64,000 nt of DNA. It comes from Amaurobius ferox (lineage: Eukaryota; Arthropoda; Arachnida; Araneae; Amaurobiidae). Below the pieces are notes generated by a model. That model saw nothing but the letters and a program-made list of their open reading frames with translations. It did not search any database and was not told the DNA's origin. Numbering within the stretch: the first letter of the stretch is position 1; every line of letters starts with the position of its first letter. The stretch is from NCBI GenBank assembly GCA_951213105.1, contig OX578144.1, positions 82,845,015 to 82,909,014 of the forward strand. Direction: 5' to 3'. Below, in pieces: positions 28,334 through 43,036 of this stretch. The position numbers and the translations under genes were made by a program.

Positions 28334-28555
28334 TCACTTTTTTTCAATAAAAGTAAGTTGTATACAATCTTTACTAAATTTTTTCTCTCCACCAAAATTA
28401 TAATATGACTTAATATTCTTACTAATTTTTTTAAGATCTTTATCATTATAATTACTTAAAAATGCTGTTCCAGTATCACCGTTTGATTCTATAAATCTTG
28501 CTATTACACTAATTCCTTTCTTTTCTAGAGATTTTTTAATCTTATAAAGATCCAT
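28334..28555 (-). CDS. Small Polinton protein, possible member of the terminal small-protein family
   Basis: A 73-aa lysine-rich protein with no clear family. It begins at an ATG in TAAATAAATGG, directly against the stop of the preceding gene remnant (28556-28791). Its core (KKSLEKKGISVIARFIE...TAFLSNYND) vaguely resembles the core of the small proteins at 28556-28791 and 42492-42776 (alternating beta-strand-like pattern, then a short conserved block). The three may be diverged copies of one OB-like or ssDNA-binding-like family, but this is inference. It is the last gene before the left TIR. Confidence 0.6.
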   Translation of the reverse strand: MDLYKIKKSLEKKGISVIARFIESNGDTGTAFLSNYNDKDLKKISKNIKSYYNFGGEKKFSKDCIQLTFIEKK

Positions 28556-28791
28556 TTATTTAGAATTATTTTTTAACTCTAATATGTTATCACCTAAATA
28601 TAAAAATCTTCCTTTATTGATTTTATTTATCGATCTATTAGAACCATGTTTATTCGCAAGGTAATACTCTTTTTCTTCACCTTCTACAATTAACTTTACG
28701 ATTGCTGCAATCATATTTTTAATTTTTTTCAATGATCATATTTTCCAGGATATAAATCATCATATGTTTGACCACTATTGAACTCTTCCAT
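28556..28791 (-). pseudogene. Frameshifted paralogue of the 94-aa right-end protein
   Basis: It starts MEEFNSGQTYDDLYPGKYDH and stops after 20 codons. One frame over, the reading continues with KKIKNMIAAIVKLIVEG, then EEKEYYLANKHG and NKGRFLYLG, to a TAA that abuts the ATG of the next gene. MEEFN, DLYPGxY, YYLANKHG and INKGRFL are shared with the intact gene at 42492-42776. A single missing base near 28730 explains the break. The start has the full AAAAATGTTT-8 nt-ATGG motif. So the Polinton carries this gene at both ends, the left copy broken. Confidence 0.8.
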
Positions 28792-28809
28792 TTATTAGTA
28801 AACATTTTT
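28788..28809 (-). promoter_or_regulatory. AAAAATGTTT-N8-ATGG start motif
   Basis: AAAAATGTTT (28800-28809, minus), ACTAATAA, ATGG. It covers the last codons of the upstream leucine-rich repeat gene, giving it a KNVY terminus. Confidence 0.8.
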
Positions 28810-29415
28810 TAAGACTGGAAATCCTACATTATTTCTTCTCATGGGTTCACTAGGTAAAAATATTAATTCACTACAATTTAATGTTTCTAAATTAGTTAAA
28901 TTTTCTATACCTTCAAGGGATTTTAATTTATTTCCGTCACAATATAATTCTTTTAAATTAGTTAAATTTTTTATACCTTCAAGAGATTTTAATTTATTTC
29001 CCTCACAATATAATTTTTTTAAATTAGTTAAATTTTTTATACCTTCAAGAGATGTAATATCATTTTCGCTACAATATAATGTTTCTAAATTAGTTAAATT
29101 TTTTATACCTTCAAGGGATGTTAATTTATTTAAATCACAATATAATTTTTTTAAATTAGTTAAATTTTTTATACCTTCAAGAGATGTAATATCATTTTCG
29201 CTACAATCTAATGTTTCTAAATTAGTTAAATTTTTTATACCTTCAAGAGATTTTAATTTATTTCCCACACAATATAATTCTTTTAAATTAGTTAAATTTT
29301 CTATTCCTTCAAGAGAACAATTATATATAAAAATAGATTTCACTTCAGTAGGATTCTCTATATTTAAGAAAGACATAGTTTTTTTTTCCATACCATTATT
29401 ATATACAACATCCAT
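28795..29415 (-). CDS. Leucine-rich repeat protein, seven 22-aa repeats
   Basis: 206 aa. After a short leader (about residues 1-33) come seven consecutive 22-residue repeats of the form SLEGIxNLTNLxxLYCxxNxL, then a 20-residue tail ending KNVY. The consensus matches the bacterial/giant-virus type of LRR (LxxLxxLxCxxNxL) that forms a curved solenoid for protein binding. There is no signal peptide or membrane segment, so it is probably cytosolic. The DNA is a 66-bp tandem array with several near-identical units, so copy number can change by slippage. It is not a Polinton core gene; likely cargo acting on the host cell. The start is fixed by the AAAAATGTTT-N8-ATGG motif. Confidence 0.85.
   Translation of the reverse strand: MDVVYNNGMEKKTMSFLNIENPTEVKSIFIYNCSLEGIENLTNLKELYCVGNKLKSLEGIKNLTNLETLDCSENDITSLEGIKNLTNLKKLYCDLNKLTSLEGIKNLTNLETLYCSENDITSLEGIKNLTNLKKLYCEGNKLKSLEGIKNLTNLKELYCDGNKLKSLEGIENLTNLETLNCSELIFLPSEPMRRNNVGFPVLKNVY
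28850..29330 (-). repeat. 66-bp tandem array encoding the LRRs
   Basis: Seven units of 66 bp containing AAATTAGTTAAATTTTTTAT, then ACCTTCAAGRGATG (plus-strand spelling). Alternate units are more alike (the SENDIT and NKLK types), suggesting duplication of two-unit blocks. Confidence 0.85.
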
Positions 29416-29433
29416 TTATATAGAAACATTTTT
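29412..29433 (-). promoter_or_regulatory. AAAAATGTTT-N8-ATGG start motif
   Basis: AAAAATGTTT (29424-29433, minus), CTATATAA, ATGG; upstream of the LRR gene. The 22 bases match the motif before 41913 exactly. Confidence 0.8.
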
Positions 29434-29442
29434 ATTAAATAT

Positions 29443-30093
29443 TTATTTATCCTCTTTGTTAGTTAATTGTCTCAAAAGATATACACTCTCTCTCAAGACT
29501 GATTTAACTTCATATATCTCTTCAAAAATTTTCTCTTGGTAAGGTTCTATTTCATTATGACCAAACTTTTTATTTAATTCACTCATCTGTATTGCTTGTA
29601 CTTTTTTCCAATAAACATTAAAAAAGTGATCAGGTAATAGCTCAAATTTATATTTAATCAAATAACAAAAATCTAATTTATGCATAAATTCTTCTATAAA
29701 ATTTTCACTAAATGTTTGATATCTAGTTATATACAACCAATTTAAATCATCTTTTAATTCTCTCATTGTATCTTCTGTAAGATTTTGAAATATTGATACT
29801 TTATATAAATCTAAATTATCAGAAAATTTTATAATAAATTCGTTACTTAAAGTTTGATATTGAGATATGTTTACCCAATCTACTTTATCTTTACATTTTT
29901 CTATAAAATCTTCTGATAATTTTTGATATCTAGAAATTTTAGGGCAATCATCAGGTTGAGCAAATTCTTCAATAAAAGATTCAGACAGTGTTGAATATTG
30001 TAAAACTAAATCCCAATTTACATGACTAATAAGATTTCTAATTACATCTTCAGATAAATTTTTTCTGGAAAATTCATTCCAATCAATATCCAT
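29443..30093 (-). CDS. WxxISxYQxLSExFI repeat protein
   Basis: 216 aa built mainly from about six degenerate 22-residue repeats (residues ~10-150): a Trp/Leu-containing strand-like piece (VNWxxIS), then YQxLSExFIExF with acidic and lysine residues. Repeats of this look occur in hypothetical proteins of giant DNA viruses (from memory of the pattern, not searched). The C-terminus (150-216) is helical and charged. Two stop codons (TAATAA) separate it from the fibre-like gene and its ATG is in TAATAAATGG. Function unknown; a virus-derived accessory protein is the best guess. Confidence 0.8.
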   Translation of the reverse strand: MDIDWNEFSRKNLSEDVIRNLISHVNWDLVLQYSTLSESFIEEFAQPDDCPKISRYQKLSEDFIEKCKDKVDWVNISQYQTLSNEFIIKFSDNLDLYKVSIFQNLTEDTMRELKDDLNWLYITRYQTFSENFIEEFMHKLDFCYLIKYKFELLPDHFFNVYWKKVQAIQMSELNKKFGHNEIEPYQEKIFEEIYEVKSVLRESVYLLRQLTNKEDK

Positions 30094-30096
30094 TTA

Positions 30097-30957
30097 TTAG
30101 AAAGAAATTTTTTCAATATGCATATAAGGTTTTAAAGCGTTACCATCAGATTTTATTCATAATGTAATGATATCATCACGTTTACCGTAAGCAAAACATG
30201 TTACTGTATTTGTATTAGCATTTAAAATTTCCTTACCATTGATTTCCAGAGATATCAGTGAACTTTTATCATATATATATATATTTTCTACATATATAGC
30301 TATATATATAGATATTTTCATATACATATCTGTAGTTAATAGCATCTCTGGGGTCAGTAATTTAGAACTCATCATATTGAAATTTACTTTTGTAAATTTT
30401 TCATCTATAAAAATAAGATCATCTACAGTAATCCAGATATCTCTATTATCTAAATATATTTTATTGACAACATCGTTATCATTTTCAGGTTCAGAAACAT
30501 TTGTAATTATTTTATTTTTTACATCAAATTTATCATTCTGTAATATTAACGAATTTTTTTCAAAATATCTTTTATTCACAACATTTTTTTCATCTTTAGG
30601 ATCTGCAACATTTCCTATTCTTTTTCCTTTTGCATCAAAAGCTTTTCCTTCTGAAGAATGTAAAGTTGTATCATTTAATTCTTTTATTCTCTTGCCTGTT
30701 TCTTCAGTAAAGGTTAAAAAACCCTCATCATATTTAGTTTTTATAAGATCTCTCAATTCATGATGATTATTCTCTATTTTATTCAAAACAAAACTTTTAG
30801 TGGTTAAATCTAAATCATCTATAGGATTTTCACAATTTTTTAAAATTCTATTTTCCATATCATAATTTCCATCATTCATTAATTTAAAACCTATACCAGG
30901 AGGTCCAATAGGTCCTTCTTTCATTTGATCATCATAAGGTGGATAATAAGCACTCAT
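30097..30957 (-). CDS. Fibre-like protein with collagen-like start; in-frame TGA near the end
   Basis: The open part is 266 aa (30157-30957). It starts MSAYYPP and has a short collagen-like GPIGPPGIGF (about residues 16-25), then three spaced phage-fibre-like repeats (NRILKN...PIDDLDLTTKSFV, KRIGNV.DPKDEKNVVNKRYF, NKIITNV.EPENDNDVVNKIYLD) and a C-terminal beta-rich domain. A TGA at 30157-30159 ends it, but the same frame stays open for 19 more codons to a TAA at 30097-30099, three bases before the next TAA-ATG junction, and the extension reads like protein. So the TGA is either a recent nonsense mutation or read through. Likely a virion spike or fibre, next to the capsid genes. Confidence 0.75.
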
Positions 30958-30967
30958 TTATTTAATT

Positions 30968-32302
30968 TTAAGATTTTAAACTCTTAACCATTGTTATAGT
31001 TTTATTTTTTAAATTTATAAAACATCTCTTTCTTTCTTTAAAAATAAAATAAAACTTATATTCCTTTTGACTATTCGTTATCCAATTAAATTCAATATCT
31101 AAATTATTTAAATCGGTATAGTTTTCATGATTTGATGAGTCAAAAGGAAAAATAGGATACAGTTTACCAAAATTCTCCTTATTTATCAAAGGTCCTGTAT
31201 CTGTATTATTATCGTAAAGTCCTTCACGTAAAAGAGCTTCATACACTCTACCATAATCTTTATTGGCAAAATTTGTTTTATAACGCATAAGAGGAACTTG
31301 TTTATTATTAATCATCAACCAGCATTCTGCCATATCTATATGATCAAATATCATATTATTTTTTTCATAATTATTATCTCTTTCAACATATTGAGGAATA
31401 ACATAGACACTTAAAACTTCATCTGACGCTGTTGTTGCTGTCACAGATCCGCTGTTGCTTCTATAAGGGCCTACCATCTTAAATCTATGTCGATCCCAAT
31501 TTACCTCTATATCTTTATCAGATAGATATGATTCCAGAAACAAACTTTCTGCAGAATTTTTTAATTCTATATAAGGTAAATGTAAGGTTAAACCTTCAAC
31601 TACTACCTTATAATTTTCGTTTCTTATATTAGTATATATCATATTTTTATTTTCATTTCTTTGAATTTCTATTTTCACTTCAAAACCAGAAATTATCTTT
31701 TCATATTCTCTAAAGAAATCGATTATATCTTTTAAAGGTGTCCTTATTTTAATGACACTGCTATCTTTCGTTTGTTCCCATCTCTTTACGAATCCTTCAT
31801 TATAATCTTTATTCATTTTCAAATTATTAAAAAATTCAGTTATTTTAGTAGTATCTTCTAAAGTACCATCATATTTGAACTCATTACGGTCAGATGAATC
31901 AGATGTATCTAGATAAAAAAATTCATTTTGAGCTTGTGATGTTACATAATCAGGAGTATAATGAATTAATCTTAAAACATGATTCATGATTGAAAAATTT
32001 GACTGTGTATTTGATTCAATTTCAGTATCTCCTATATGTACTTTTAAAGTTTTGATAAAACCTCCACCATTTACCAGACTCACATTTTCGTTTCCAATGG
32101 ATGATTTATCATTTTTTGTAATTTTTAATTTTAGTTCAAGATATCCTCTAGAATATAAAATTTTTGCTTTAGTATCATTAATATGAAAAACATAGGTAGC
32201 ATTCTCATCTGAACTATGTTCTTTTGGATGAATTTCTCTTAATTCATAACTTTTAATGTGATCATTATAATAATAACGAGTATCACTTAAATCATAAATC
32301 AT
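30968..32302 (-). CDS. Polinton major capsid protein (double jelly-roll)
   Basis: 444 aa, the largest structural gene. The order of features fits Polinton major capsid proteins: an N-terminal segment with LELKLKITK and SLVNGGGFIKTLKVHIGDTE (first jelly roll), an IRTPLKDIIDFFREYEKIIS segment followed by KIEIQR, then a second beta-rich part with VYVIPQYV and IEFNWITNS near the end. In the family two jelly-rolls per subunit form pseudo-hexagonal trimers. The start ATG is in CCTAAATAAATGAT and abuts the TAA of the 41-aa gene upstream. Uninterrupted, so the main shell gene is intact. The identification rests on pattern and position; a profile search was not possible. Confidence 0.85.
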   Translation of the reverse strand: MIYDLSDTRYYYNDHIKSYELREIHPKEHSSDENATYVFHINDTKAKILYSRGYLELKLKITKNDKSSIGNENVSLVNGGGFIKTLKVHIGDTEIESNTQSNFSIMNHVLRLIHYTPDYVTSQAQNEFFYLDTSDSSDRNEFKYDGTLEDTTKITEFFNNLKMNKDYNEGFVKRWEQTKDSSVIKIRTPLKDIIDFFREYEKIISGFEVKIEIQRNENKNMIYTNIRNENYKVVVEGLTLHLPYIELKNSAESLFLESYLSDKDIEVNWDRHRFKMVGPYRSNSGSVTATTASDEVLSVYVIPQYVERDNNYEKNNMIFDHIDMAECWLMINNKQVPLMRYKTNFANKDYGRVYEALLREGLYDNNTDTGPLINKENFGKLYPIFPFDSSNHENYTDLNNLDIEFNWITNSQKEYKFYFIFKERKRCFINLKNKTITMVKSLKS

Positions 32303-32428
32303 TTATTTAGGAAGAATTTTTAAACCACCTCCTTTCTTTTTCATAGAAAATATTTCATTTAATATATTCTTAGGTTTCAATAAAACCTTTAAAAATCCTT
32401 GTATTTTTTTACTTTTTCTTCTATACAT
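32303..32428 (-). CDS. 41-aa basic protein between the capsid genes
   Basis: A complete small frame starting MYRRKSKKIQGFLK and ending in KKGGGLKILPK. It is strongly basic (about a third Lys/Arg), with a Gly-Gly-Gly near the C-terminus. The ATG lies in TCTTAAATAAATG and its TAA abuts the major capsid ATG, exactly the junction style of the other genes, which is the main reason to call it real. Small basic proteins with Gly-Gly protease sites occur in adenovirus cores (pX/mu); a DNA-condensing or capsid-cementing role is only a guess. Confidence 0.7.
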   Translation of the reverse strand: MYRRKSKKIQGFLKVLLKPKNILNEIFSMKKKGGGLKILPK

Positions 32429-32432
32429 TTAT

Positions 32433-33125
32433 TTAAGAAGAAATAAAATTAAATTCTACAGCTCCTTTATTTAAATCTATTAATTCACCTTTTTGATTAG
32501 TAATCCTCATTTTTATTCTTTCAACAGGATCTACTTTAACAGGAAAAAATATCCAATTATTAAATTCTTTTGAAATTATACTACCTGGAGGGTTTTTATT
32601 AGTGAAAGAATATATAACTTCTGAATTATATTGATTTATTAAAGATCCTTTTACAACATCACAGTGAATATAAATATTATCATTCCCATTAGATATATCA
32701 GCAATATGTTCACCTTCAATCTCTGTTTCTTCATCATAACTTCCATATGTAGGATTTAAAAAGCCTATAATTTTATGAAAGTTCCTTTTTGTAATATCAA
32801 TTACCCAACCATTTTTCAGTTTAATAGATATTCTTTGTCTTGCTTCAATAATACCAAATTTGACAGGTGGATCCTCACCGAATATTTTCATCATATACTC
32901 ATTTTATCCTCTTATAGTATAATTACCATTTGAGATAGTAATTGTTATATCTGCGTCTAATGTATACAATCTAAATATGTTATTTCCATAATTCTTACTT
33001 ATATTAAACCAGGAAACTTCCATAGAGAATGAGTGTAAAGCTAATTTTTTTATTTTAAGAGGTGTAATAAAATTTACAGTAAATTCTTCTGATTTCTCAT
33101 GACCTTCAGATTTTAATTTTATCAT
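32433..33125 (-). pseudogene. Polinton minor capsid (penton-like) protein, split by an in-frame TAA
   Basis: Two frames, 32904-33125 (73 aa) and 32433-32894 (153 aa), are in the same phase and separated only by a TAA at 32904-32906 and a few codons. The first carries the start (MIKLKS) and LKIKKLALHSFSMEVSWFNI; the second carries IYIHCDVVKGSLIN, NNWIFFPVKVDPVERIKMRI and a C-terminal strand, as in the single jelly-roll penton protein that occupies capsid vertices. The whole would be about 230 aa, the expected size. The start motif (TATAAATG) precedes 33125, while the second part has no good start motif of its own. A point mutation or readthrough at TAA are the options. Confidence 0.8.
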
Positions 33126-33556
33126 TTATACATAACAAAATTTTCATTATAGTCACTAGGTTTTTGTGTAGGAAATGATTTGAGAACATTTTTAGGTGAT
33201 ATACCTTTATTCCTTTCTCTTATATATTTCATACAAAATATACCACATTTCACAGATGAAGGTTTCTGTAAAAAACTATCATTATAACCTATTTTTTTAT
33301 TGGACGTAACAAGAAATGATTTCATATTTTTAGGAATATAGTCTTTCTTCATATTGTCATATTCACCAAACGGATCAAAATATTCCACATATTTATATTT
33401 AGGATCATTATAATAACAAACCCAATGAGTTCCGGGACCTGTTGATACATCTAAATTAATGATTCCATTTTCGAATTTTCCTATAGTTTTAGGTAATAAA
33501 TCAGAGGTAAACACACCTCTAAATCCTTTTTCATTTTTCATATTTTCTATAATCAT
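33122..33556 (-). CDS. Polinton capsid maturation protease (adenovirus-type cysteine protease)
   Basis: 144 aa from the ATG at 33556. It begins with the family word GFRGVFTSDLLP (residues 11-22). The catalytic set is visible: His44 in GTHWVCYY, Asp61 in EYFDPFG, Gln97 in SFLQKPSS, Cys104 in SVKCGIFCMKY. This C5/Ulp1-like fold cleaves capsid precursors at Gly-rich sites during virion maturation. A GTG at 33574 gives a longer open frame, but the ATG at 33556 is preferred because the alternative reading of the upstream gene ends in a TGA that overlaps it as ATGA. It is the only core gene here without a TAAATG start. Its stop is followed directly by the minor capsid ATG. Confidence 0.9.
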   Translation of the reverse strand: MIIENMKNEKGFRGVFTSDLLPKTIGKFENGIINLDVSTGPGTHWVCYYNDPKYKYVEYFDPFGEYDNMKKDYIPKNMKSFLVTSNKKIGYNDSFLQKPSSVKCGIFCMKYIRERNKGISPKNVLKSFPTQKPSDYNENFVMYK

Positions 33557-33563
33557 TTTGTCG

Positions 33564-33938
33564 CTAATTCCCACTGTTGATATATTCCCTTTCCAAGTTT
33601 TTTTTTTTCCCAGATCCTTTCTTTTGTACAGCTGAACTAGCTAATCCTGATAAAGCACCTGTTGCTAATGCTGGAACTGCTAATTTAGCAGCGGTTATTA
33701 AAGAGGGTATAAGTGCCGCTAGAAATGGTAAAAATCCTCCATTTTTATCTAATTGAGTTTTACTGATTGTAATTCTTTTTTTATCATTAATATGATTAAT
33801 TTGAGTTTTAGTTAAATACATCTCATGATTAGGAGTTTTAGATTTATCTATTTGTAATGTTACTTCTACTTTATTTTTAAAAGCTGATTTAAGTTTATTT
33901 TTCTGACCTTCACTCAAATAAACTTTATATTTTATCAT
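33564..33938 (-). CDS. pX-like minor virion protein (adenovirus core/pVI-like), C-terminus probably shifted
   Basis: 124 aa. The N-terminus has two linked units (YLSEGQKNKLKSAFKNKVEV; MYLTKTQINHINDKKRITIS), then SKTQLDKNGGFLPFLAALIP, an Ala-rich hydrophobic stretch (about 74-107) and KKGSGKKK. This layout is characteristic of a conserved Polinton virion protein with amphipathic and membrane-active parts, likely cut by the protease at Gly-rich sites. After an A10 run (about 33598-33607) the frame ends in an uncharacteristic tail. Shifted by one base, the following codons contain a GKGIY-type motif and end in a TGA overlapping the protease ATG. One A has probably been lost from the run. Confidence 0.8.
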   Translation of the reverse strand: MIKYKVYLSEGQKNKLKSAFKNKVEVTLQIDKSKTPNHEMYLTKTQINHINDKKRITISKTQLDKNGGFLPFLAALIPSLITAAKLAVPALATGALSGLASSAVQKKGSGKKKNLEREYINSGN

Positions 33939-33948
33939 TTATTAACAG

Positions 33949-34699
33949 AGAAATTGTTTATGATATCGTTGTACATCATTATAAGTCATTTCTTTATTTT
34001 TTAATAACATATCTAACAATAAAGTTACTTGATTATACAATTTCTTTGATTTACTTCGGTTACATATTTTTCTGTTAAATTTGATAATACATTCAATCCT
34101 TTACCTACCTTCATTTCTTTACTACTTCGAATCATATTTAATCTATGCATATAATTTTGCAACATATTTTCTTTATTTTTAATTTCTTTTATATCATTCT
34201 TTTTCTGGTTTAATTCCTCCTCTGAAAAATTTTTAGCTCTAGAAATTGTACTTTTTAAGTTGCCTCTTTTCTTAGATAATCCTTCTTTTAACTGTTTAGC
34301 TCTTCCATACATCTCCTCTAATTTTTCTTGATCATTTAAAAATACTGACGGTCTGTATAATTTTTCCTCTTTTAAATATTTTAAATTTAAATTTTGATCG
34401 ATATCATAAGTATAAGATACTAATTCTTTCACAGCTTCAATAGGCTCTTCTATAGATGGAAATGAAATATTTTCTACAACATTTTGAATACTTTTCACAA
34501 CTTCTTTATTTGATTTTTCATATTTTTCAATTTCTTGAGTGATTGGTTTATGAAATTCCTCTAAGGTCTTTTGAATACCTATTTTTTCTTTTAGTTGATC
34601 TTCATTATTCTTTCTTATTTCTTTTTCTATTTTTACTATTTTAATTGAATCTTTTATTTGCTTTAAAAACTTGTGTTTCCGTTCTTTTTCTAAGTTCAT
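33949..34699 (-). pseudogene. Conserved Polinton coiled-coil protein, frameshifted near its end
   Basis: The main frame (34025-34699, 224 aa) is charged and helical throughout: an N-terminal coiled coil (residues 1-70), a middle FPSIEEPIEAVKELVSYTYD, a second coiled coil (115-185) and MKVGKGLNV near residue 200. It stops at 34025 in the middle of a helix, but one frame over the text continues for about 30 codons (LLLDMLLKNKEMTYNDVQRY) to a TAA placed just before the next gene's TAATAAATG. One missing base near 34047 accounts for it. It is the first leftward gene, with TATATAAATGAAC at its start. A scaffold or minor virion role is inferred from position between ATPase and capsid genes. Confidence 0.7.
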
Positions 34700-34755
34700 T
34701 TATATAATATTAATTTTTTTACTGCAGCAAATTTTATTTTTACTGCTAGTAAATT
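34700..34755. promoter_or_regulatory. Divergent promoter between the two gene sets
   Basis: The 56 bp between the first leftward gene (ATG ends 34699) and the ATPase (ATG 34756). It contains TATATAAATGAAC (minus start), an A/T tract of seven T, a CTGCAG palindrome, and ATTTTATTTTTACTGCTAGTAAATTATG (plus start, in halves). All genes read away from it. Confidence 0.65.
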
Positions 34756-35478
34756 ATGATAAAAATTAAAGATTACACAGAACCAGAAGAATTACCTGAT
34801 CCTAAACAACATCCTTTGATACCTAAACATCCATTTAGATTGCTTATAGTAGGATCTTCAGGTTCAGGTAAAACAAATTTACTGTTAAATTTGATTTATG
34901 ATTTATTATTTTTTGATGCATTATATATATATGTGCAAAAGATTTATACGAACCTAAATATTCTAAATTACAAGAAATATATACATTGTTTGAAGATATA
35001 GAAAGAGAAGATATTTTGAAATGTAAGAATATAAAGAATAAGAAAAAATTATTAAAATTATATGATAAATTCAAAAAAAAAAGTATTATTTTCTTCAGAT
35101 CATAATTTTATTAATGTAGATGATTTAAATCCTACATTAAGGAATTTAGTTATTTTTGATGATTGTGTGATTGAGAAAGATCAAAAAAACATCGAAGAAT
35201 TATTTATCAGAGGTAGAAAGAAAAACGCATCCTTTATTTATTTAACTCAGTCATATTATTTAACACCTATCAATATAAGAAGTAACTGTAATTACGATAT
35301 ATTTTTCACTCTACAACCAAAAGAAAATCAACAGATTATAAGAGAGATAGATGGTTTATTAAGTACTGAAGAATTCAAACGAATGTATAATAAAAGTGTT
35401 CAAGAAAAATACGATTTTTTTATGTTAGATTTAGTGAATTCAGAAATGAGATACAGGAAAAAATTTAATCCTTTATAA
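34756..35478 (+). pseudogene. A32-like packaging ATPase (FtsK/HerA type), with two compensating frameshifts
   Basis: The N-terminus (34756 to ~34930) has HPFRLLIVGSSGSGKTNLLL, Walker A at residues 33-40. The C-terminal part (from ~35072) has LRNLVIFDDCV (Walker B) and FIYLTQSYYLTP, typical of the Polinton/poxvirus A32-like DNA-packaging ATPase. Both parts are in one phase. The stretch between (about 34932-35080) is coding only in another phase (DLYEPKYSKLQEIYTLFEDI). So one base is missing in the TATATATATATG run near 34930 and one is extra in the A9 run near 35077. As assembled, the protein stops at 35001. ATG 35062 could give only the Walker B half. This class drives genome packaging into the capsid. 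Confidence 0.85.
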
Positions 35479-35868: not shown

Positions 35869-36345
35869 ATGGTTTGTAAAAAGAAAGGTGGTGATATTGT
35901 TGGATGGATACAAGATAAAGTAAATCTTCCAGAAATGCATTTACCAGGATATCAATATTGTGGCCCAAATACAAAATTAGAAAAAAGATTAAAAAGAGGT
36001 GATCCTGGAATAAATAGAGTTGATAAAGCATGTAAAGAACATGATATTGATTACAATAAAACAAAAGATACAAAACTGAGACATGTTGCTGATCAAAAAT
36101 TAATAGATAATTTAAATGCTATACAAGATCCAACATTTCAAGAAAGATTAGCTAGAGGAATTATTAAACCTATTATTAAAGTTAAAAAAACTTTTGGATT
36201 AGGTATTTCTATATATTGTGTCAAGTGTAAAGATAAAACCCCAACTAAAAATTATTATAAAACTACTTCTAAAAATAATAAACCAGTTGGTAAAGGTATC
36301 TGTACTATTTGTGGAAGTAAAAAGAATACTTTTTTAGGAATTTAA
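35869..36345 (+). CDS. Phospholipase A2 (parvovirus-VP1-like) with C-terminal zinc ribbon
   Basis: 158 aa. The N-terminal domain has LPGYQYCGPNTKLEKRLKRG (Ca2+-loop, residues 25-44) and VDKACKEHDIDY (residues 51-62), with the His58-Asp59 catalytic pair and Tyr62 as in HDxxY. This is the phospholipase type parvoviruses use to breach endosomal membranes; in Polintons it is presumed to be a virion entry function. The Ca2+-loop has Asn34 where Gly is usual. The C-terminal domain has YCVKCKDKT and GICTICGSKK (Cys117, 120, 145, 148), a DUF5679-like zinc ribbon. The end contains T TTT TTA in phase nine bases before the stop, leading into the integrase frame. Confidence 0.9.
   Translation: MVCKKKGGDIVGWIQDKVNLPEMHLPGYQYCGPNTKLEKRLKRGDPGINRVDKACKEHDIDYNKTKDTKLRHVADQKLIDNLNAIQDPTFQERLARGIIKPIIKVKKTFGLGISIYCVKCKDKTPTKNYYKTTSKNNKPVGKGICTICGSKKNTFLGI
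36330..36336 (+). promoter_or_regulatory. In-phase T TTT TTA slippery heptamer (possible -1 frameshift site)
   Basis: In the phospholipase frame the codons are ACT TTT TTA GGA ATT TAA, so the heptamer T TTT TTA is in the X XXY YYZ phase. A -1 slip enters the integrase frame (AGG AAT TTA AAA GAG...). No convincing downstream pseudoknot was seen by eye. Confidence 0.45.
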
Positions 36346-37343
36346 AAGAGGTCTATTATAATCCAGAAACAGGTTATTGTGGAATTAATGAATTGAAAAG
36401 AAAAACAGGGTTATCTAATGTTGAAGAATTTTTACATGAACAAGATGTATATACTAGATATAAACCTGTCATTCGTATATTTAAAAGAAGAAGGGTTTAT
36501 GTTCCAAACAGTAATAATCAATTTGACGCTGATTTGTTATTTATAAAAAATTATAGCAAATATAATGATGGAACTAATTATTTGTTAACGGTTATAGATG
36601 CTTTTAATAAATATGCTTGGGCTTTTCCTATAAAACGAAAAACATCTGAAGAAGTTGTACAAGGTTTTAAAGAAGTTTTTAAAGAAAGAATACCAAAATT
36701 CATTTTGACAGATGAAGGTACTGAATTTACAGGAAAACAGACCCAAAAACTATTTAAAGATAATAATATACATTGGTTTACAACTAAAAATAAAGAAATA
36801 AAATCTGCAATAGCTGAGAGATTTAATAGAAGTATAAGAGAAAAAATTATAAAATATATGCATGCTAACAATACTAAAAGATATATTGATGTATTACCAA
36901 AATTACTTAAAAATTATAACAATTCATATCATAGATCAATAAAAATGACACCTGTTGAAGCCAGTAAGGATGATAACGAATCTCAAGTTTATAAAAATTT
37001 ATATAAAGAAAAAATAATTAGAAAACCGAAATTTAAGATAGGGGATAGTGTTAGAATATCTACAATTAAGAAAACATTCAGGAAAGTAGATGATTCTACA
37101 TTCACTGAAGAGATTTTTATAATTTCTGAAGTATTGAAAACAGATCCAATTACTTATCGATTAAAAGATTTAAACAGTAAAGAAATTGAAGGAACTTTTT
37201 ATGAAAATGAAATGGTAAAATATAATAAAAAAGATGATGTATATAAAATTGAAAAAATCATAAAAAAGAAAGGAAATAATTATTTTGTAAAATGGCTAGG
37301 ATATCCAGATGAATTTAATAGTTGGACATCTGAATTAGTTTAA
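36336..37343 (+). CDS. Polinton integrase (rve, DDE) with C-terminal chromodomain; no ATG start
   Basis: Family-like sequence begins before any start: NLKEVYYNPETGYCGINELK precedes the TTG at 36393 in frame. The catalytic core (numbered from that TTG) has Asp47 in FDADLLFI, Asp107 in ILTDEGTEF, Glu142 in SAIAERFN. Then comes a basic SH3-like region (KPKFKIGDSVRIS) and a chromodomain in the last ~35 residues (YKIEKIIKKKGNNYFVKWLG and an EFNSWTSE end). The enzyme inserts the element and makes the 6-bp duplication; the chromodomain suggests targeting to methylated histone H3. The frame is open back to 36321 with no ATG, and no TAAATG motif is present. Either the start was lost, a non-ATG codon is used, or it is made by frameshifting from the phospholipase gene. 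Confidence 0.88.
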   Translation, partial: RNLKEVYYNPETGYCGINELKRKTGLSNVEEFLHEQDVYTRYKPVIRIFKRRRVYVPNSNNQFDADLLFIKNYSKYNDGTNYLLTVIDAFNKYAWAFPIKRKTSEEVVQGFKEVFKERIPKFILTDEGTEFTGKQTQKLFKDNNIHWFTTKNKEIKSAIAERFNRSIREKIIKYMHANNTKRYIDVLPKLLKNYNNSYHRSIKMTPVEASKDDNESQVYKNLYKEKIIRKPKFKIGDSVRISTIKKTFRKVDDSTFTEEIFIISEVLKTDPITYRLKDLNSKEIEGTFYENEMVKYNKKDDVYKIEKIIKKKGNNYFVKWLGYPDEFNSWTSELV

Positions 37344-37349
37344 ATATAA

Positions 37350-37676
37350 ATGGAGATGAAATTAATCTATGATTCGGAAGAAGAAGAACATTTTTATGTT
37401 ATTGATTACGAAAGTTTAAAACAAAGATATAATAGTAGAGTTTGTTATTTTAACCGATTAAGAAGGAGATATAATATTTCTCAAGAAGTTGAGGATATGT
37501 TTTTAAAATTTTTAGATTTTATGTATTATGAGAAATCAATTAATTATTACTATTTTATGAAAAAGATTTGTGATATTTTTAATATTGAAAATAATATAAA
37601 AGTTCAAAAAGTTAAAAAGAAATATGAAAAAATATGGAATGATTTCTTACAAAGTATTACAAAAAATGTTTCTTAA
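37350..37676 (+). CDS. Polinton small protein, unknown
   Basis: 108 aa, acidic start (SEEEEHFYVID) and a lysine-rich helical remainder with YNSRVCYFNRLRRRYNISQE and an aromatic cluster SINYYYFMKKI. No known family recognised. The ATG is in AAATATAAATGG six bases after the integrase stop. The C-terminus KNVS is produced by the start motif of the next gene. Confidence 0.7.
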   Translation: MEMKLIYDSEEEEHFYVIDYESLKQRYNSRVCYFNRLRRRYNISQEVEDMFLKFLDFMYYEKSINYYYFMKKICDIFNIENNIKVQKVKKKYEKIWNDFLQSITKNVS

Positions 37677-37683
37677 TAAATGG
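37662..37683 (+). promoter_or_regulatory. AAAAATGTTT-N8-ATGG start motif
   Basis: AAAAATGTTT, CTTAATAA, ATGG. It overlaps the KNVS codons of the gene before. Confidence 0.8.
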
Positions 37684-37925
37684 AGCTTACAAAAAAGTGC
37701 ATACACTGTTTGACTATGAAATCGGTAAATGAGTTTTACATATATCATAGAAATGAAAAAATTTATTTCCAAAGTCATTGCAAATGTTGTGATTCCATAA
37801 TCAAATATAAAAAATTTAAATGTGAATGTGGTATGCAATATACCTATACACACAAAAAGCGGCATTTAAAAAGTATTTATCACAGTAAGCATCTTGGAAA
37901 AAGTATTGTTAAAAATGTTTCCTAA
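37680..37925 (+). CDS. Small zinc-binding Polinton protein
   Basis: 81 aa with two Cys-x2-Cys pairs (KKCIHCLTMKS and HCKCCDS) and a second module KFKCECGMQYTYTHKKRHLK ending SIYH, which looks like a C2H2 finger with closely spaced cysteines (C-x-C). Nucleic-acid binding is likely. It sits directly upstream of the polymerase with the same start motif, suggesting joint expression with replication genes. The terminus KNVS is again motif-derived. Confidence 0.75.
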   Translation: MELTKKCIHCLTMKSVNEFYIYHRNEKIYFQSHCKCCDSIIKYKKFKCECGMQYTYTHKKRHLKSIYHSKHLGKSIVKNVS

Positions 37926-37932
37926 TAAATGG
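37911..37932 (+). promoter_or_regulatory. AAAAATGTTT-N8-ATGG start motif of the DNA polymerase
   Basis: AAAAATGTTT, CCTAATAA, ATGG. It covers the KNVS codons and stop of the zinc protein. Confidence 0.8.
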
Positions 37933-40900
37933 AGCTCAACTTAAAGACTATTAATGAACTTAGAAAAGTAGTAAAATTATTGAATATTAAACAACCTAAA
38001 GGTTGTAAGAAGGTTGATTTAATTAAATTATTAACTAAATATATCAGAAAAACAGGTGAATATAAACCTGTTTTAGTAGATTTATTAAATTTAGATATAT
38101 CAAAATACTTGGAAAAAAAGAAAAAAATATTTATTGATAAAGCCAAAAAACGTAAAAAAATTAAAAAGATTTTTGATTCTTTTAATTTAAGATTTGATAA
38201 AAATGATTTTAAATCTGTCTTTCCTGAAGAAAATGTATTTACAGAAGAAGAAAATCTTGAAAAGTTATTTACAGAAGATAGAAAATGTCGTATATGTGGT
38301 AAATATTATGAAGATGAAGAAGAACATATAAAGAAAGAGTTAATGATTAAAAGATCAAAACAAAAAAGAAAATGTATTATTTGCGGCATATATTATAAAC
38401 ATTTAGATAATCACATATCAAGTCGAAAACATAAAAAAGCATTAGATGAAGGTAATGTAGAAATTAAGGAATATGAAACTGCTTATAAATCTAGATTAAG
38501 ATCATATAGAATTAATAATTTTAATAATATTAAAATCCCTCTAGAATTTTTAGAAGAGAAAAGAAAGGTTGTAATAGAAAAAATAAAGCATATTATGAAA
38601 GAATTTAATGGAATAAAGGTAAATTTTAAATTGTTTTGTTTGTATAAATTGAATGAAGAAATTCAAGAATTTACATTCAAAACTGAGAATCAAATTATAT
38701 TAAAATCTAATGATTTACATACTTTTTATGATTATGTTATTGACAACTTAATAAATGAATCTGATGATTTTATATCAAAAGGATCTGGTTGGAGTCTTGA
38801 AGAAATTAAATTTTTAGAATTGAGAATAAATAAGTATCAACCCTTGAGAGGATCAAGTTATATTGATTTACCTGAAAAAATTAAATCTAAACAAGCCATA
38901 ATAAATGTAAAAAATAAAGATAATAAATGTTTTATGTGGTCAATATTATCAGCAATTTATCCTGTAAAAAAAGATCCTCAAAGAGTGTCAAAATATGAAC
39001 AATATAAAGATGAATTAAATTTTAAAGGTATTGATTTTCCTGTTTCATTAGACAATATTAAGAAATTTGAAAAACTAAATAATATATCTGTAAATGTTTA
39101 TAGTTATGATGGTTCAATTTATCCACTTAGAATAACTAACAATAAATTAGAAAAACATGTAAACTTCTTTTATATGAAAGATCATTATTGTTGGATTAAA
39201 AATATGAATAGTTTGATCAGATCACAAATTACTAATAATCATCGTATATTTTTATGTGATAGATGTTTAAATTATTTTTATTCTGAGGAAAGATTAAAGA
39301 TACATGTGGAATACTGTAAAGATGCTGTCACAATTAATATGCCTAAAAAAGATGAAGTTATTCAATTTAAAAATCATGAAAGAAAAATGAGAGTACCATA
39401 TACTATATATGCTGATTTTGAATCTCTCTTACCTAAAATTGATACATGTGAGCAAGATCAAACTAAATCATATACTGTGAAATATCAAAAACATGTAGCA
39501 GATGCATTTTGTTATTATATCAAATATGAAAAGGAATACTTTAAACCTCCTGTTGTTTATAGAGGACCAGATACAATCAAAAAGTTTGTAACTATGTTAA
39601 AAGAGGATACTCTTAAAATTGAAAAAATTATAGAAGACAAAACTAAAAAATATGAAAGTATCAAATCAATGATAGAGTTCGATGCAAATCATTATAAAAG
39701 AACTAATATTTGTCATATATGTGAAAATCAAATCTTAAATGATGATAAAGTAATTGATCATTGTCATATAACTGGAAAATATAGAGGTCCAGCTCATAAT
39801 ATTTGTAATTTAAATTATCAAATTCCAAAATTTATTCCAGTAAAAATTCATAATTTAACAGGTTATGATTCTCATTTGTTTATAAAAGAACTTGGATTTG
39901 ATCAATCAAAAATAGATGTTATACCTAATACTGAAGAAAAATATATATCTTTCAGCAAAAAAATAGGAGGTATGAAATTCAGATTTATTGATTCATTTAA
40001 ATTTATGTCTTGCAGTTTAGATAATTTATCAAAAAACTTGAGAAAGTTACCAGAAAATATTGAGTTGAATAAGTGTCCACCAAAAATACGAAAAATGAAA
40101 TATATTAATTACTTAAAATCAAAATATAGAGAGACATCATTACATTTTCCTGATGATAAATTAGATCTCATTACAAGAAAAGGTGTATATCCTTATGATT
40201 ATATGGATTCTAGAGATAAATACAAAGAAACAGAATTACCTTCAAAAGATAAATTTTATAATAAATTGAATGAATGTAATATAACTGATGAAGAATATAA
40301 ACATGCTCAACGTGTTTGGAAAGAATTTAATATAAAAAATTTAGGTGAATATACAGATTTATATGTCAAAACAGATGTATTAATTTTAACAGATGTATTT
40401 GAAAATTTTAGAGATGTTTGTTTAAAAACTTATAAATTAGATCCTGATTGGTATTTTACTGCTCCTGGTTTATCTTGGGATGCAATGTTAAAAATAACAA
40501 ATGTTAAATTAGATTTATTAAATGATTATGATATGATTCTCATGATAGAAAAAGGTTTAAGAGGAGGTGTTTCACAATGTTGTAATAGATATGGAAAAGC
40601 TAATAATAAATATATGAAAAATTATGATAATAGTAAAGAATCCAATTATTTAATGTATTTAGATGCTAATAATTTATATGGATGGGCTATGAGTCAATAT
40701 TTACCATATGGAGAATTTAAATGGTGTAATGATTATGATAAACGTGAATTATATAACAATAAAATAAAAGATGATATTGGATATATATTTGAAATTAGTT
40801 TAAGATATCCAAAAGAGTTACATGATTATCATTCAGATTTACCATTACGTCCTGAAAATAGAATACCTGAAAATTCGAAACAAGGTAAGTTATTAACAAC

Positions 40901-41912
40901 TTTACATGATAAAGAGAAATATGTAGTTCATTATAGAAGTTTAAAACAATATTTGAAAATAGGTTTAAAGGCTGTAAGAGTACATAGAGTATTGCAATTT
41001 AAACAATCAAATTGGTTAAAAAAATATATAGATTTAAAGACTGAAATGAGAAAGATAGCTGCTAATGATTTTGAGAAAGATTTTTATAAATTAATGAATA
41101 ATTCTATATTTGGAAAAACAATGGAATCTATAAGAAAGCGAATTGATGTAAGATTATGTTGTAATTATGATCAAGTTAAAAAATTAATTGCTAAACCTAA
41201 TTTCAAATGTAGAACTATTTTTGATGAAAATTTGGTAGCTGTTCACATGAAAAAAACAAAACTATATTTTAATAAACCGATTTATGTTGGAATGAGTATA
41301 TTAGATTTATCTAAACATTTAATGTATGATTTTCATTATAATGTTATGAAACCGAGATATAAAGATAATATTAAGTTATTATATATGGATACAGATAGTT
41401 TTATATATGATATTAAAACAGATGACTTTTATGAAGATATGAAGTCTATGATTGATTATTTCGATACATCTGATTATCAAGTAAATAATCTGTATAATAT
41501 GCCTAGATGTAATAAAAGAGTATTAGGTAAAATGAAAGATGAAAATAACGGTGTGATTATGGAAGAATTTGTAGGTTTAAGAAGTAAAATGTATTCAATA
41601 AAATTAGAAAAACAGAGTGTTGAAGAATATAATAATAAAAATGAAGACCATAAAAATGTTGAGATTAAGAGGTCTAAAGGTACTAAGACTAGTACCGTTA
41701 AAAACAGAATATCATTTGAAGATTATAAAGACTGTTTATTAAATAAAAAAGATCAATATAGAACACAGAATTTAATTAGAAGTAAGAAACATGAATTGTA
41801 TTCAATTCATGTGAACAAGATAGCTTTATCAGCAAAAGATGATAAAAGATTTATATTAGAAGATGGTATGAATACTAGAGCTTTAGGACACTATAAAAAT
41901 GTTTCTATATAA
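37929..41912 (+). CDS. Protein-primed DNA polymerase B, multi-domain
   Basis: 1327 aa, uninterrupted. In order: SAP-like helices (1-40); two zinc knuckles (Cys120 CRICG, Cys149 CIICG with HxxxH); a Cys/His module resembling an OTU-type cysteine peptidase (Cys334 in NKCFMWSI, His419 in DHYCWIKN); a finger at Cys443 (CDRC...HVEYC); exonuclease I YADFES (Asp496, Glu498); an inserted endonuclease-VII-like HNH module (CHIC at 595, DHCHITGKYRGPAH at 610-623); exonuclease II LTGYDSHLF (Asp647); exonuclease III YVKTDVLIL (Asp816); polymerase A YLDANNLYGW (Asp912); B KLMNNSIFGK (1054-1063); C YMDTDS (Asp1154, Asp1156). The enzyme copies the element from a protein primer. All catalytic residues are present. 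The end YKNVSI reflects the next start motif. Confidence 0.97.
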   Translation: MELNLKTINELRKVVKLLNIKQPKGCKKVDLIKLLTKYIRKTGEYKPVLVDLLNLDISKYLEKKKKIFIDKAKKRKKIKKIFDSFNLRFDKNDFKSVFPEENVFTEEENLEKLFTEDRKCRICGKYYEDEEEHIKKELMIKRSKQKRKCIICGIYYKHLDNHISSRKHKKALDEGNVEIKEYETAYKSRLRSYRINNFNNIKIPLEFLEEKRKVVIEKIKHIMKEFNGIKVNFKLFCLYKLNEEIQEFTFKTENQIILKSNDLHTFYDYVIDNLINESDDFISKGSGWSLEEIKFLELRINKYQPLRGSSYIDLPEKIKSKQAIINVKNKDNKCFMWSILSAIYPVKKDPQRVSKYEQYKDELNFKGIDFPVSLDNIKKFEKLNNISVNVYSYDGSIYPLRITNNKLEKHVNFFYMKDHYCWIKNMNSLIRSQITNNHRIFLCDRCLNYFYSEERLKIHVEYCKDAVTINMPKKDEVIQFKNHERKMRVPYTIYADFESLLPKIDTCEQDQTKSYTVKYQKHVADAFCYYIKYEKEYFKPPVVYRGPDTIKKFVTMLKEDTLKIEKIIEDKTKKYESIKSMIEFDANHYKRTNICHICENQILNDDKVIDHCHITGKYRGPAHNICNLNYQIPKFIPVKIHNLTGYDSHLFIKELGFDQSKIDVIPNTEEKYISFSKKIGGMKFRFIDSFKFMSCSLDNLSKNLRKLPENIELNKCPPKIRKMKYINYLKSKYRETSLHFPDDKLDLITRKGVYPYDYMDSRDKYKETELPSKDKFYNKLNECNITDEEYKHAQRVWKEFNIKNLGEYTDLYVKTDVLILTDVFENFRDVCLKTYKLDPDWYFTAPGLSWDAMLKITNVKLDLLNDYDMILMIEKGLRGGVSQCCNRYGKANNKYMKNYDNSKESNYLMYLDANNLYGWAMSQYLPYGEFKWCNDYDKRELYNNKIKDDIGYIFEISLRYPKELHDYHSDLPLRPENRIPENSKQGKLLTTLHDKEKYVVHYRSLKQYLKIGLKAVRVHRVLQFKQSNWLKKYIDLKTEMRKIAANDFEKDFYKLMNNSIFGKTMESIRKRIDVRLCCNYDQVKKLIAKPNFKCRTIFDENLVAVHMKKTKLYFNKPIYVGMSILDLSKHLMYDFHYNVMKPRYKDNIKLLYMDTDSFIYDIKTDDFYEDMKSMIDYFDTSDYQVNNLYNMPRCNKRVLGKMKDENNGVIMEEFVGLRSKMYSIKLEKQSVEEYNNKNEDHKNVEIKRSKGTKTSTVKNRISFEDYKDCLLNKKDQYRTQNLIRSKKHELYSIHVNKIALSAKDDKRFILEDGMNTRALGHYKNVSI

Positions 41913-41916
41913 ATGG
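41895..41916 (+). promoter_or_regulatory. AAAAATGTTT-N8-ATGG start motif
   Basis: AAAAATGTTT, CTATATAA, ATGG, identical to the motif of the LRR gene on the other arm. It encodes the KNVSI end of the polymerase. Confidence 0.8.
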
Positions 41917-42158
41917 ATGAGTGCTTAGGTGATATTCGAGCTTTAAATTTTACAAATTCTGAAGAAATTTACTATATGACTTATCTTTGTAATGAATTGT
42001 ATGATTTATATATAAAATATGATCATAATAAAAAACTATTATCAGAAAGTTTTCACAGGTTGACTGAATTAATTGAAAAAGAAGAAAATAAAGATATTAA
42101 ATTGAATGGATTAGGAGTTTTATATGTTATTTCAAAGAATTTATTCTATTGGACATGA
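41913..42158 (+). CDS. Polinton small protein, unknown
   Basis: 81 aa, largely helical (TYLCNELYDLYIKYDHNKKL, then SFHRLTELIEKEEN). No family recognised. The ATG touches the polymerase stop. A further start motif follows its stop. Confidence 0.65.
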   Translation: MDECLGDIRALNFTNSEEIYYMTYLCNELYDLYIKYDHNKKLLSESFHRLTELIEKEENKDIKLNGLGVLYVISKNLFYWT

Positions 42159-42166
42159 ATTTTATA

Positions 42167-42186
42167 AAAAATGTTTAAATTAAATG
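42167..42186 (+). promoter_or_regulatory. AAAAATGTTT-N7-ATG start motif
   Basis: AAAAATGTTT, AAATTAA, ATG. The spacing is one base shorter than in the other copies. Confidence 0.6.
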
Positions 42187-42345
42187 ATCCTGAAAAAAAA
42201 TTGTGCCGCCTTACTTGAGTCAACTGAGAAAAACAATAATCTTAGAAGCGAGGTCAAAGATGAGCAATCCTTATCTTTTCACACCCGGCGCAAAAAAAAT
42301 CAATCAACACGTGGCGCGCTTTCTAAAGAGGAAAAAATAATGTGA
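42184..42345 (+). CDS. Possible 53-aa protein
   Basis: An ATG in TTAAATGATC opens 53 codons to TGA at 42343. The text is hydrophilic and its bases include GC-rich patches (TGTGCCGCC, GTGGCGCGC) unlike the AT-rich neighbours, which argues for a non-coding or recently changed segment. The start motif is the only support. Confidence 0.35.
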   Translation: MILKKNCAALLESTEKNNNLRSEVKDEQSLSFHTRRKKNQSTRGALSKEEKIM

Positions 42346-42473
42346 AAGACAGATCATTCTATATAATTTTCTACAAGTCAGTGCAGTTTTAATATATTAG
42401 AGGGGTTTATAAAACTATTTTATCTCTATAATTCAGGGGGGATGACTATCCTCATATAATGTTTAGTTTATAA
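42346..42473. other. Short intergenic stretch
   Basis: AT-rich with a G6 run at about 42436. No gene. Ends in the start motif of the next gene. Confidence 0.5.
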
Positions 42474-42495
42474 AAAAATGTTTACTAATAAATGG
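42474..42495 (+). promoter_or_regulatory. AAAAATGTTT-N8-ATGG start motif
   Basis: AAAAATGTTT, ACTAATAA, ATGG. The 22 bases match the motif of the broken paralogue at the left end. Confidence 0.8.
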
Positions 42496-42986: not shown

Positions 42987-43036
42987 ATTTTTTAGTCGAA
43001 AAGGTCTTAGATGTTAACTTTTTTCGACTAAAAAAT
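42987..43036. repeat. Perfect 16-bp inverted repeat, 18-nt loop
   Basis: ATTTTTTAGTCGAAAA (42987-43002) and its exact reverse complement (43021-43036). Confidence 0.85.

Follow-up and report, generated by a model that had tools for sequence, protein, structure and literature searches.

A candidate poxvirus-late-like promoter at the start codons of a Polinton family in the spider Amaurobius ferox

Most genes of a Polinton residing in the genome of Amaurobius ferox begin with TAAATG, and the 22-bp motif AAAAATGTTT-N8-ATGG is only the strongest form of this wider signal. We consider it probable that the signal is a bipartite promoter, located at most start codons of this Polinton family, which is similar to poxvirus late promoters and is most likely read by a viral RNA polymerase.

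The window (the whole 64,000-nucleotide stretch analysed) contains a genuine Polinton at positions 27663-44221. As is typical of Polintons/Mavericks, the element ends in long terminal inverted repeats, flanked on both sides by a 6-bp target duplication (GCTATA):

27663-28236, plus strand: left terminal inverted repeat, 574 bp, 100% complementary to 43648-44221
43648-44221, minus strand: right terminal inverted repeat, pairing with the left one

The element also carries the characteristic gene set, i.e. PolB (1327 aa, start 37929, with PolB relatives found), a retroviral-type integrase (with a Chromo domain and 65% identity to an rve integrase), and a protease, a double-jelly-roll capsid protein and a packaging ATPase (giving Peptidase_C48/C5, DJR-like and Pox_A32 matches, respectively). 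Several genes are broken in this copy, and no RNA polymerase gene was found among its annotated ORFs. The named proteins closest to the PolB and major capsid protein come mostly from spiders. Searches of viral_contigs with the PolB and major capsid protein of the window, and with an alignment of the latter, revealed no relatives. Tandem Repeats Finder (longest period 500, minimum score 500) returned no repeats for positions 44222-64000.

The initial annotation had placed the motif before seven starts on both arms, with a spacing of 8 nt in six cases and 7 nt in one. An exact motif search reproduced these spacings and the presence on both arms (two exact sites on the minus strand, four on the plus strand); six of the seven sites are exact, and the one at 42184 is decayed:

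28788-28809, minus strand: exact motif, start 28791, gene paralogous to that at 42492 but damaged
29412-29433, minus strand: exact motif, start 29415, leucine-rich-repeat gene (28795-29415), upstream non-coding
37662-37683, plus strand: exact motif, start 37680, 81-aa Cys-rich ORF (a single relative found)
37911-37932, plus strand: exact motif, start 37929, PolB
41895-41916, plus strand: exact motif, start 41913, 81-aa ORF
42474-42495, plus strand: exact motif, start 42492, 94-aa ORF, upstream non-coding
42167-42187, plus strand: decayed motif (AAAAATGTTT with 7-nt spacing, ATGA instead of ATGG), start 42184, 53-codon ORF

All six exact copies lie at gene starts, compared with a mean of 0.007 copies, and never more than 1, over 300 dinucleotide-shuffled versions of the element, and none was found in the remainder of the window. 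The 7-nt site looks like decay, because the equivalent position in another genomic copy of the element (L122) is occupied by an exact 22-mer spaced by 8 nt. Since the genes at 28791 and 42492 are paralogues (MEEFN...), the six exact sites do not represent six independent events.

The wider signal was found at further starts, with a variant or weaker box or with no box at all (30957, 33125, 33938, 35869 and 37350):

28552-28573, minus strand: variant AAAAATAATT-N8-ATGG, start 28555
30090-30111, minus strand: weaker A-rich box with TAATAAATGG, start 30093
30955-30960, minus strand: TAAATG, start 30957, gene with a T7 tail-fibre-like domain (PF03906)
32300-32321, minus strand: AAAAATTCTT box 1 base further upstream with TAAATAAATG, start 32302, double-jelly-roll major capsid protein
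32426-32431, minus strand: TAAATG, beginning a 41-aa ORF that immediately precedes the capsid gene
33123-33128, minus strand: TAAATG, start 33125, probably the initial fragment of a disrupted capsid-type gene
33936-33941, minus strand: TAAATG, start 33938
34697-34702, minus strand: TAAATG, start 34699, first gene of the minus arm
35476-35481, plus strand: TAAATG, start 35479
35866-35871, plus strand: TAAATG, start 35869, phospholipase A2-like and DUF5679
37347-37352, plus strand: TAAATG, start 37350
34756-34758, plus strand: exception, ATPase start preceded by AAATT, without TAAATG

Comparisons were based on 22 starts, i.e. the first ATGs of ORFs of at least 70 aa (leaving out the antisense ORFs 28841 on the plus strand and 35804 and 37647 on the minus strand) together with 42184 from the initial annotation. 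TAAATG is present at 17/22 starts versus 17/392 other coding-strand ATGs, ATAAATG at 16/22 versus 4/392, and an upstream AAAAAT box at 14/22 versus 35/392, two of the 14 belonging to ATGs judged internal (35062 and 36858). The 41-aa ORF at 32428 (AAATAAATG) falls below the size limit and is therefore counted among the other ATGs. Once 32894, 35062 and 36858, all lying inside broken or start-less genes, are dropped, TAAATG is found at 17/19 starts; with this set a leave-one-out matrix ranked 15/19 starts above all 567 other ATGs (AUC 0.91). The start at 33556 may also be internal, since its homologue in a diverged element (L175) reads further upstream. TAAATG is common throughout this AT-rich element (48 occurrences versus 31.2 in shuffles), and therefore its placement, and not its count, is informative.

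According to the Kozak rule, T at position -3 makes a poor start context. This anti-Kozak base occupies position -3 in 20/22 starts, and a Kozak context was thus rejected as the meaning of the motif. It is also improbable that the signal acts in translation more broadly, as a start-codon context or a stop-restart junction. Several starts do directly follow an upstream stop (TAATAAATG, TAAATG), including that of the capsid gene, placed directly after the 41-aa ORF. However, TAAATG is located 10-86 nt past the upstream stop at 29415, 30093, 30957 and 33938, and it also precedes 34699, the first gene of its arm; moreover, the base at -3 is the wrong one and a box at about -18 would be needless.

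The pattern AAAAATGTTT-N4-ATAAATGG has 4830 exact matches in the 3.56-Gb genome of the spider, compared with 3 for the reversed pattern. As a spacing control, a looser pattern with the spacing one shorter gave 65 matches, 4 of which contain ATAAATGG as judged by eye. In two copies (L161 and L139) the gene upstream of the motif has been replaced by another PolB lineage, and the motif is still present beyond the PolB stop, in L139 with a changed spacer. Retention of the motif after the upstream gene had been swapped indicates conservation as DNA and not as protein, which agrees with the initial annotation. A conserved C-terminal peptide of the upstream proteins (KNVS/KNVY) was considered as the source of the motif, since four of the six exact sites overlap the end of the upstream reading frame and encode KNV(S/Y) in the same frame. 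This reading, to which we assign a negligible probability, was rejected, being contradicted by the non-coding sites at 29415 and 42492 and by the position of the motif in L161 and L139.

At start 41913 (five copies), differences per site amount to 0.525 at positions -30 to -19 and 0.450 in the spacer, compared with 0 in both the box and ATAAATGG and 0.054 in the codons that follow; starts 28791 and 37929, whose ATGs are out of register in the copy alignments (aligned in 0/5 and 1/15 copies, respectively), were excluded from this calculation. TAAATG is retained at 156/174 copy-starts, or at 156/160 when the two starts lacking it in the window are excluded. These copies are relatives of one another, and most were located through exact motif matches, so the conservation of the box is biased upward. 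Six further stretches were chosen conversely, for having no exact match listed at the expected 41913 place, and three of them held the 41913 gene. TAAATG is kept in all three: one (L168) has a single changed box base, and the others (L169 and L171) have the box AAAAATAATT at normal spacing, with a second AAAAATGTTT further upstream.

The same comparisons bear on the idea that the motif is a module-boundary repeat, i.e. a short identical junction word that enables gene swaps and is kept by recombination and gene conversion instead of transcription. The homology shared with L161 sets in precisely where the motif does (41895), in spite of the unrelated upstream PolB, and the 41913 spacer varies among copies while both halves are constant. 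Yet such a pattern could merely follow from the presence of a promoter at every junction, and this explanation, which we regard as rather unlikely, accounts neither for a word ending in the start codon nor for the box-less TAAATG starts.

Outside this family the picture is different. A search with a PolB alignment identified two distant relatives in viral_contigs, together with 19 contigs of genome_contigs; the signature is absent from these. TAAATG was found at 2/74 starts versus 171/4042 other ATGs when 14 of the 21 contigs (GC below 0.37) were pooled and starts were taken from all ORFs of 100 aa or more, even where the ATG is internal; the remaining seven contigs provided 48 further starts, 0 with TAAATG. 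The expected occurrence of the motif in related Polintons holds for the spider genome and does not extend to distant relatives; as their sequences lack the signature, it is a trait of a lineage and not of Polintons in general. Scanning viral_contigs for the exact motif yielded 79 stretches with one match each and none with two, which we read as chance.

A diverged family of the same genome (L174-L176) has TAAATG at 3/7 and AATAAAG directly before ATG at 3/7 of the starts judged, none of which is that of an integrase or protease or lies in L176, and the AAAAATGTTT box was not found at the right place in its members. Within this family, L174 encodes a protein matching Pox_VLTF3 (E 6.6e-9; 36.1 bits, cut-off 25 bits), whose ORF adjoins a Polinton integrase. 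The match spans the second half of the profile only, comparison with solved structures gave no meaningful match (best E 0.87), and the ORF itself starts with TATA before ATG, without TAAATG. All 150 scored PF04947 matches in the spider genome exceed the cut-off, and there are none in 14 control genomes; none was found in the motif-bearing element of the window. VLTF3 within a Polinton-type element of a host genome is also known from the adintovirus-type insertions of Amoebidium (PMC11244446); the parts of that report available to us mention no promoter motif, and in the spider the factor belongs to a sister family and not to the motif-bearing element.

The reading as a viral promoter, proposed in the initial annotation, is supported by position, strand, conservation at the DNA level and enrichment in the genome; its portrayal as transposon-specific has to be modified, as the signal resembles a known class. 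Poxvirus late promoters place TAAAT(G/A) at the start, with a core of about 20 bp ending 5-7 bp before it (PMC5294985, PMC3061580). As in vaccinia and the entomopoxviruses, TAAAT(G) overlaps the start codon here (17/22 starts), the upstream part is AT-rich, and the gap (5 nt from the box end to TAAAT at the six exact sites) is within the poxviral range. In contrast, the late core contains T residues over about 20 bp, whereas the box is a 10-bp A-rich-to-T sequence, and it resides in a transposon with no RNA polymerase gene found; poxviruses have a viral RNA polymerase, VLTFs and a 5' poly(A) leader, compared with a VLTF3-like protein in a sister Polinton only. The vaccinia intermediate promoter is likewise bipartite, with an AT-rich core (-26 to -13), a 12-bp spacer and a TAAA initiator (-1 to +3), but the box of the Polinton would lie at about -16 to -7 from the start, with a spacer of about half that length, and this box has a preferred sequence.

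The yeast cytoplasmic linear plasmids pGKL1/2 have a protein-primed PolB. Their genes are each preceded by a short conserved element and have a TAAAAT-type initiator, but the element (UCS) is ATNTGA, with a median of 19 nt to the start, and RNA polymerase and capping enzyme are encoded by the plasmids themselves; in the window, ATNTGA is not enriched within 60 nt of starts (3/22 versus 96/392 other ATGs). Mavirus and EMALEs, being Polinton-related, also have one promoter common to their genes. Their TCTA motif matches CroV late promoters and is thought to be read by a giant virus; it is present at 5/22 starts, 2/6 exact sites and 29/392 other ATGs, and is therefore not the shared part of the signal. 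Among the papers listed by the literature searches, which omit most subscription journals, no title or abstract opening describes a promoter motif in Polintons.

That host RNA polymerase II reads the signal, as a nuclear promoter whose start element is specific to Polintons, is unlikely, but the least so of the alternatives weighed. In its favour, the annotated ORFs include no RNA polymerase gene, the element sits in nuclear-type genomic DNA, and TATAAATG is present at six starts and 0/392 other coding-strand ATGs. If this were a TATA box, it would be placed at -5 from the ATG. TATA boxes are located about 30 bp before the transcript start, which would then fall about 25 nt inside the ORF, yet the capsid protein can be aligned with its relatives from the first residues; the T at -3 (20/22), if transcribed, would also give a poor translation context. 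A role as polyadenylation signal (AATAAA) for the gene upstream, suggested by AATAAATG at 10/22 starts versus 4/392 other coding-strand ATGs, is very improbable: six other starts have TATAAATG instead, and AATAAA is barely enriched in the element (117 versus 99.2; 4/300 shuffles reach 117). It was rejected because TAAA also occurs where no upstream same-strand gene is seen, i.e. at 34699 and at both divergent starts of L175 (the ATPase and the 34699 homologue).

In the promoter model, most genes would have a bipartite promoter at their start codon, with the motif as its core, and every gene would constitute a promoter-plus-ORF module. The downstream half, (A/T)ATAAATG, would serve as a TAAAT-type initiator, and the upstream half as an A-rich-to-T box, with AAAAATGTTT as its strong form and variants such as AAAAATAATT elsewhere. 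Transcription would most likely start on the A's just before or inside TAAAT, giving mRNA with almost no templated leader; the T at -3 would be tolerable if absent from the mRNA. As the poxvirus late promoter is the closest functional model, the reading enzyme is most likely viral, probably an RNA polymerase of the NCLDV type that a helper virus provides and that works with late transcription factors, e.g. the VLTF3-like protein of the sister Polinton. We infer the function, start site, polymerase and helper from these comparisons, and to our knowledge no helper virus of these Polintons has been described.

The signal is useful for recognising genuine start codons in these Polintons, and a defined candidate promoter together with a candidate factor makes the transcription of animal Polintons testable. 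It bears both on this transcription and on whether animal Polintons are nuclear transposons or virophage-like satellites of large DNA viruses. Tentatively, and with less confidence than in the promoter itself, we suggest that the Polintons of this animal may use a poxvirus-type machine and not RNA polymerase II, combining late-type TAAATG promoters, a VLTF3-like factor of a sister family and the polymerase of a cytoplasmic DNA virus; this would make them parasites or satellites of an animal NCLDV, in the manner of virophages.

The segment at 27663-44221 of the window is a Polinton, bounded by 574-bp inverted repeats that are 100% identical and flanked at both ends by a GCTATA duplication. The top-scoring relatives of its PolB (best 120 of 7709) come from spiders and other arthropods, and the element also encodes a chromo-domain integrase, an adenovirus-type protease, an A32-type ATPase and a double-jelly-roll capsid. 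This copy is damaged, with the ATPase spread over two ORFs and the gene starting at 28791 broken; the integrase frame has no ATG where it begins, and a capsid-type gene is probably split. A leucine-rich-repeat gene lies at the element's edge (28795-29415; its repeat regions vary among copies), a single ORF at 35869-36345 contains a phospholipase A2-like domain followed by DUF5679, and a 41-aa ORF (32303-32428), whose own start is AAATAAATG, directly precedes the capsid gene. By eye, the stretch at 43060-43180, near the right end, appears tRNA-derived-SINE-like. Beside the Polinton, a long-period tandem array (47653-59335; period approximately 2253 bp) carries six copies of a 139-aa ORF that looks gag-like by eye.

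The initial annotation ascribed a 22-bp motif to seven starts. Six exact copies of AAAAATGTTT-N8-ATGG are indeed present (28788 and 29412 on the minus strand; 37662, 37911, 41895 and 42474 on the plus strand), all ending in an ORF's own ATGG, whereas the site at 42184, the seventh, is spaced by 7 nt and ends in ATGA. None occurs in the window outside the element, and dinucleotide shuffles of the 16.6-kb element (n=300) contained a mean of 0.007 and a maximum of 1.

When the starts are aligned, the 22-mer emerges as the strongest version of a signal found at most genes. TAA/ATG (the slash marks the start-codon boundary) is present at 17 of 22 starts versus 17 of 392 other ATGs on each arm's coding strand (Fisher 8e-17), or at 17/19 when three starts internal to broken genes are left out; for ATAA/ATG the counts are 16/22 and 4/392. 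AAAAAT occurs within -24..-6 at 14/22 starts (including two internal ATGs, 35062 and 36858) versus 35/392, its first base being at -18 in eight cases and at -16 to -20 in the other six. The forms AATAAATG (10/22 versus 4/392) and TATAAATG (6/22 versus 0/392) are similarly concentrated. With a leave-one-out matrix, in which paralogous starts are not independent, 15 of 19 starts outscored all 567 other ATGs (AUC 0.91), the exceptions being 30957, 42184, 33556 and 34756. That the signal serves translation is spoken against by the T at -3 of 20/22 starts, which is the opposite of the usual animal start context.

A search of the 3.56-Gb A. ferox genome with AAAAATGTTT-N4-ATAAATGG gave 4830 matches, as against 3 for the reversed pattern. 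A looser pattern (spacing one shorter, two fewer fixed letters) gave 65 and 19, respectively, and four of the 65, judged by eye, have ATAAATGG. Thirty loci cut out among the matches listed (first 100, one contig) all align to the window's element; together with 29 stretches they were compared with the window. In 35 stretches, TAA/ATG is kept at 156 of the 174 copy-starts that retain ATG, and 14 of the remaining 18 are all those of two starts lacking it in the window.

The start signal stays where the upstream sequence changes, i.e. it is conserved as DNA.

Differences per site among copies (-30..-19 / box, the upstream A-rich half / spacer / ATAAATGG / next codons)
Start 41913, 5 copies: 0.525 / 0.000 / 0.450 / 0.000 / 0.054
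Start 42492, 7 copies: 0.496 / 0 / 0 / 0 / 0.073
Start 37680, 11 copies: 0.283 / 0.044 / 0.136 / 0 / 0.046
Start 29415, 15 copies, weak contrast: 0.065 / 0.013 / 0.095 / 0.060 / 0.081

The zero box differences are partly due to ascertainment, since most copies come from exact-match loci; the change in flank and spacer is not such an effect. Among six stretches picked for having no listed exact match at the expected 41913 place, three contain the 41913 gene, all with TAA/ATG; the box has a changed base in one and reads AAAAATAATT, at normal spacing, in two. At start 30957, three copies (L139, L160, L150) have TAATAAATG and differing upstream letters.

The motif might also be a conserved peptide of the upstream protein. 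In two own-genome copies (L161 and L139), however, the place upstream of 41913 is taken by a PolB of another lineage, with no blastp hit to the window's PolB and, against relatives of the latter, a best hit of 27% over 202 aa (E 0.002). Its stop codon comes before the motif, and AAAAATGTTT-N8-ATGG is kept at the 41913 place in both, with a changed spacer in L139, whose next motif site is damaged. The peptide explanation therefore falls, and the DNA-level conservation originally proposed stands. A PolB of another lineage beside homologous neighbouring genes is seen in L139, L161, L122 and L165; in the case of L161, homology with the window starts exactly at base 41895, so that its boundary falls on the motif.

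The signature did not extend to distant Polinton-like contigs: in counts pooled from 14 of 21 (GC below 0.37) TAA/ATG is found at 2/74 starts versus 171/4042 other ATGs. It is therefore a trait of the window's Polinton lineage, not of Polintons at large. TAAA/ATG is somewhat enriched there (6/74 versus 65/4042), mainly through L011 (4/7), where it may be the same initiator in a shifted form. L011 is a MAG contig whose PolB is 44% identical.

Six proteins of a diverged Polinton in the same genome (L174-L176) are 48-67% identical to their counterparts in the window's element (protease, ATPase, phospholipase, integrase and the products of 35479 and 33938), and a seventh is 32% identical. Three of the seven starts judged in this diverged Polinton have TAA/ATG (homologues of 33938 and the phospholipase, and an ORF at 728) and three AATAAAG/ATG (ATPase, homologues of 34699 and 35479); AAAAATGTTT was not found at the right place. 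It also contains the following gene, which starts with TATA/ATG:

L174:882-1424 (A. ferox C1:19662600-19665000), VLTF3-like ORF of 180 aa adjoining the integrase, Pox_VLTF3 E 6.6e-9

The Pfam Pox_VLTF3 profile gave 598 candidates in the A. ferox genome, of which 150 were scored (above the curated cut-off, free of stops, spanning the second half of the profile), and no matches in 14 control genomes. The one place among the 150 that was inspected closely, L174-L176, has a Polinton context, and no VLTF3-like gene was found in the window's motif-bearing element. VLTF3 in adintovirus-type insertions of Amoebidium has already been published (a passage of PMC11244446).

Titles and abstract openings among the literature matches listed report no Polinton promoter motif, in agreement with the initial annotation, which knew of none; the promoter passages of PMC10328495, PMC8097293 and PMC12220804 contain none either, and PMC6211774, among the papers listed, deals with yeast elements. 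Mavirus-type elements employ the helper's TCTA promoter (in the relevant passage of PMC8547959), and TCTA is present at 5/22 starts of the window's Polinton. Passages of PMC6831550 and PMC6211774 describe ATNTGA, a TAAAAT-type initiator and 5' poly(A) leaders for the pGKL plasmids, the leaders having a vaccinia counterpart (excerpt of PMC12722222); ATNTGA is not enriched here (3/22 versus 96/392). Poxvirus intermediate promoters have TAAA at -1..+3 and a 12-bp spacer, and it is the viral RNA polymerase itself that recognises this TAAA (passages of PMC12917281). In poxvirus late promoters, according to passages of PMC5294985 and PMC3061580, 5-7 bp separate an AT-rich core from a TAAAT(G/A) placed at the start codon; the TAA/ATG at 17/22 starts resembles the latter. 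In the window's Polinton, TAAAT would correspond to the initiator and the upstream box to the promoter core. If slippage at TAAA also occurs here, the T at -3 would never be in the mRNA and would be tolerated for this reason.

The placement, orientation, spacing and conservation of the signal have been shown in this study. The signal is real, acts as a mark of gene starts at the level of DNA in one Polinton family, and is best interpreted as a candidate promoter of the poxvirus late type.
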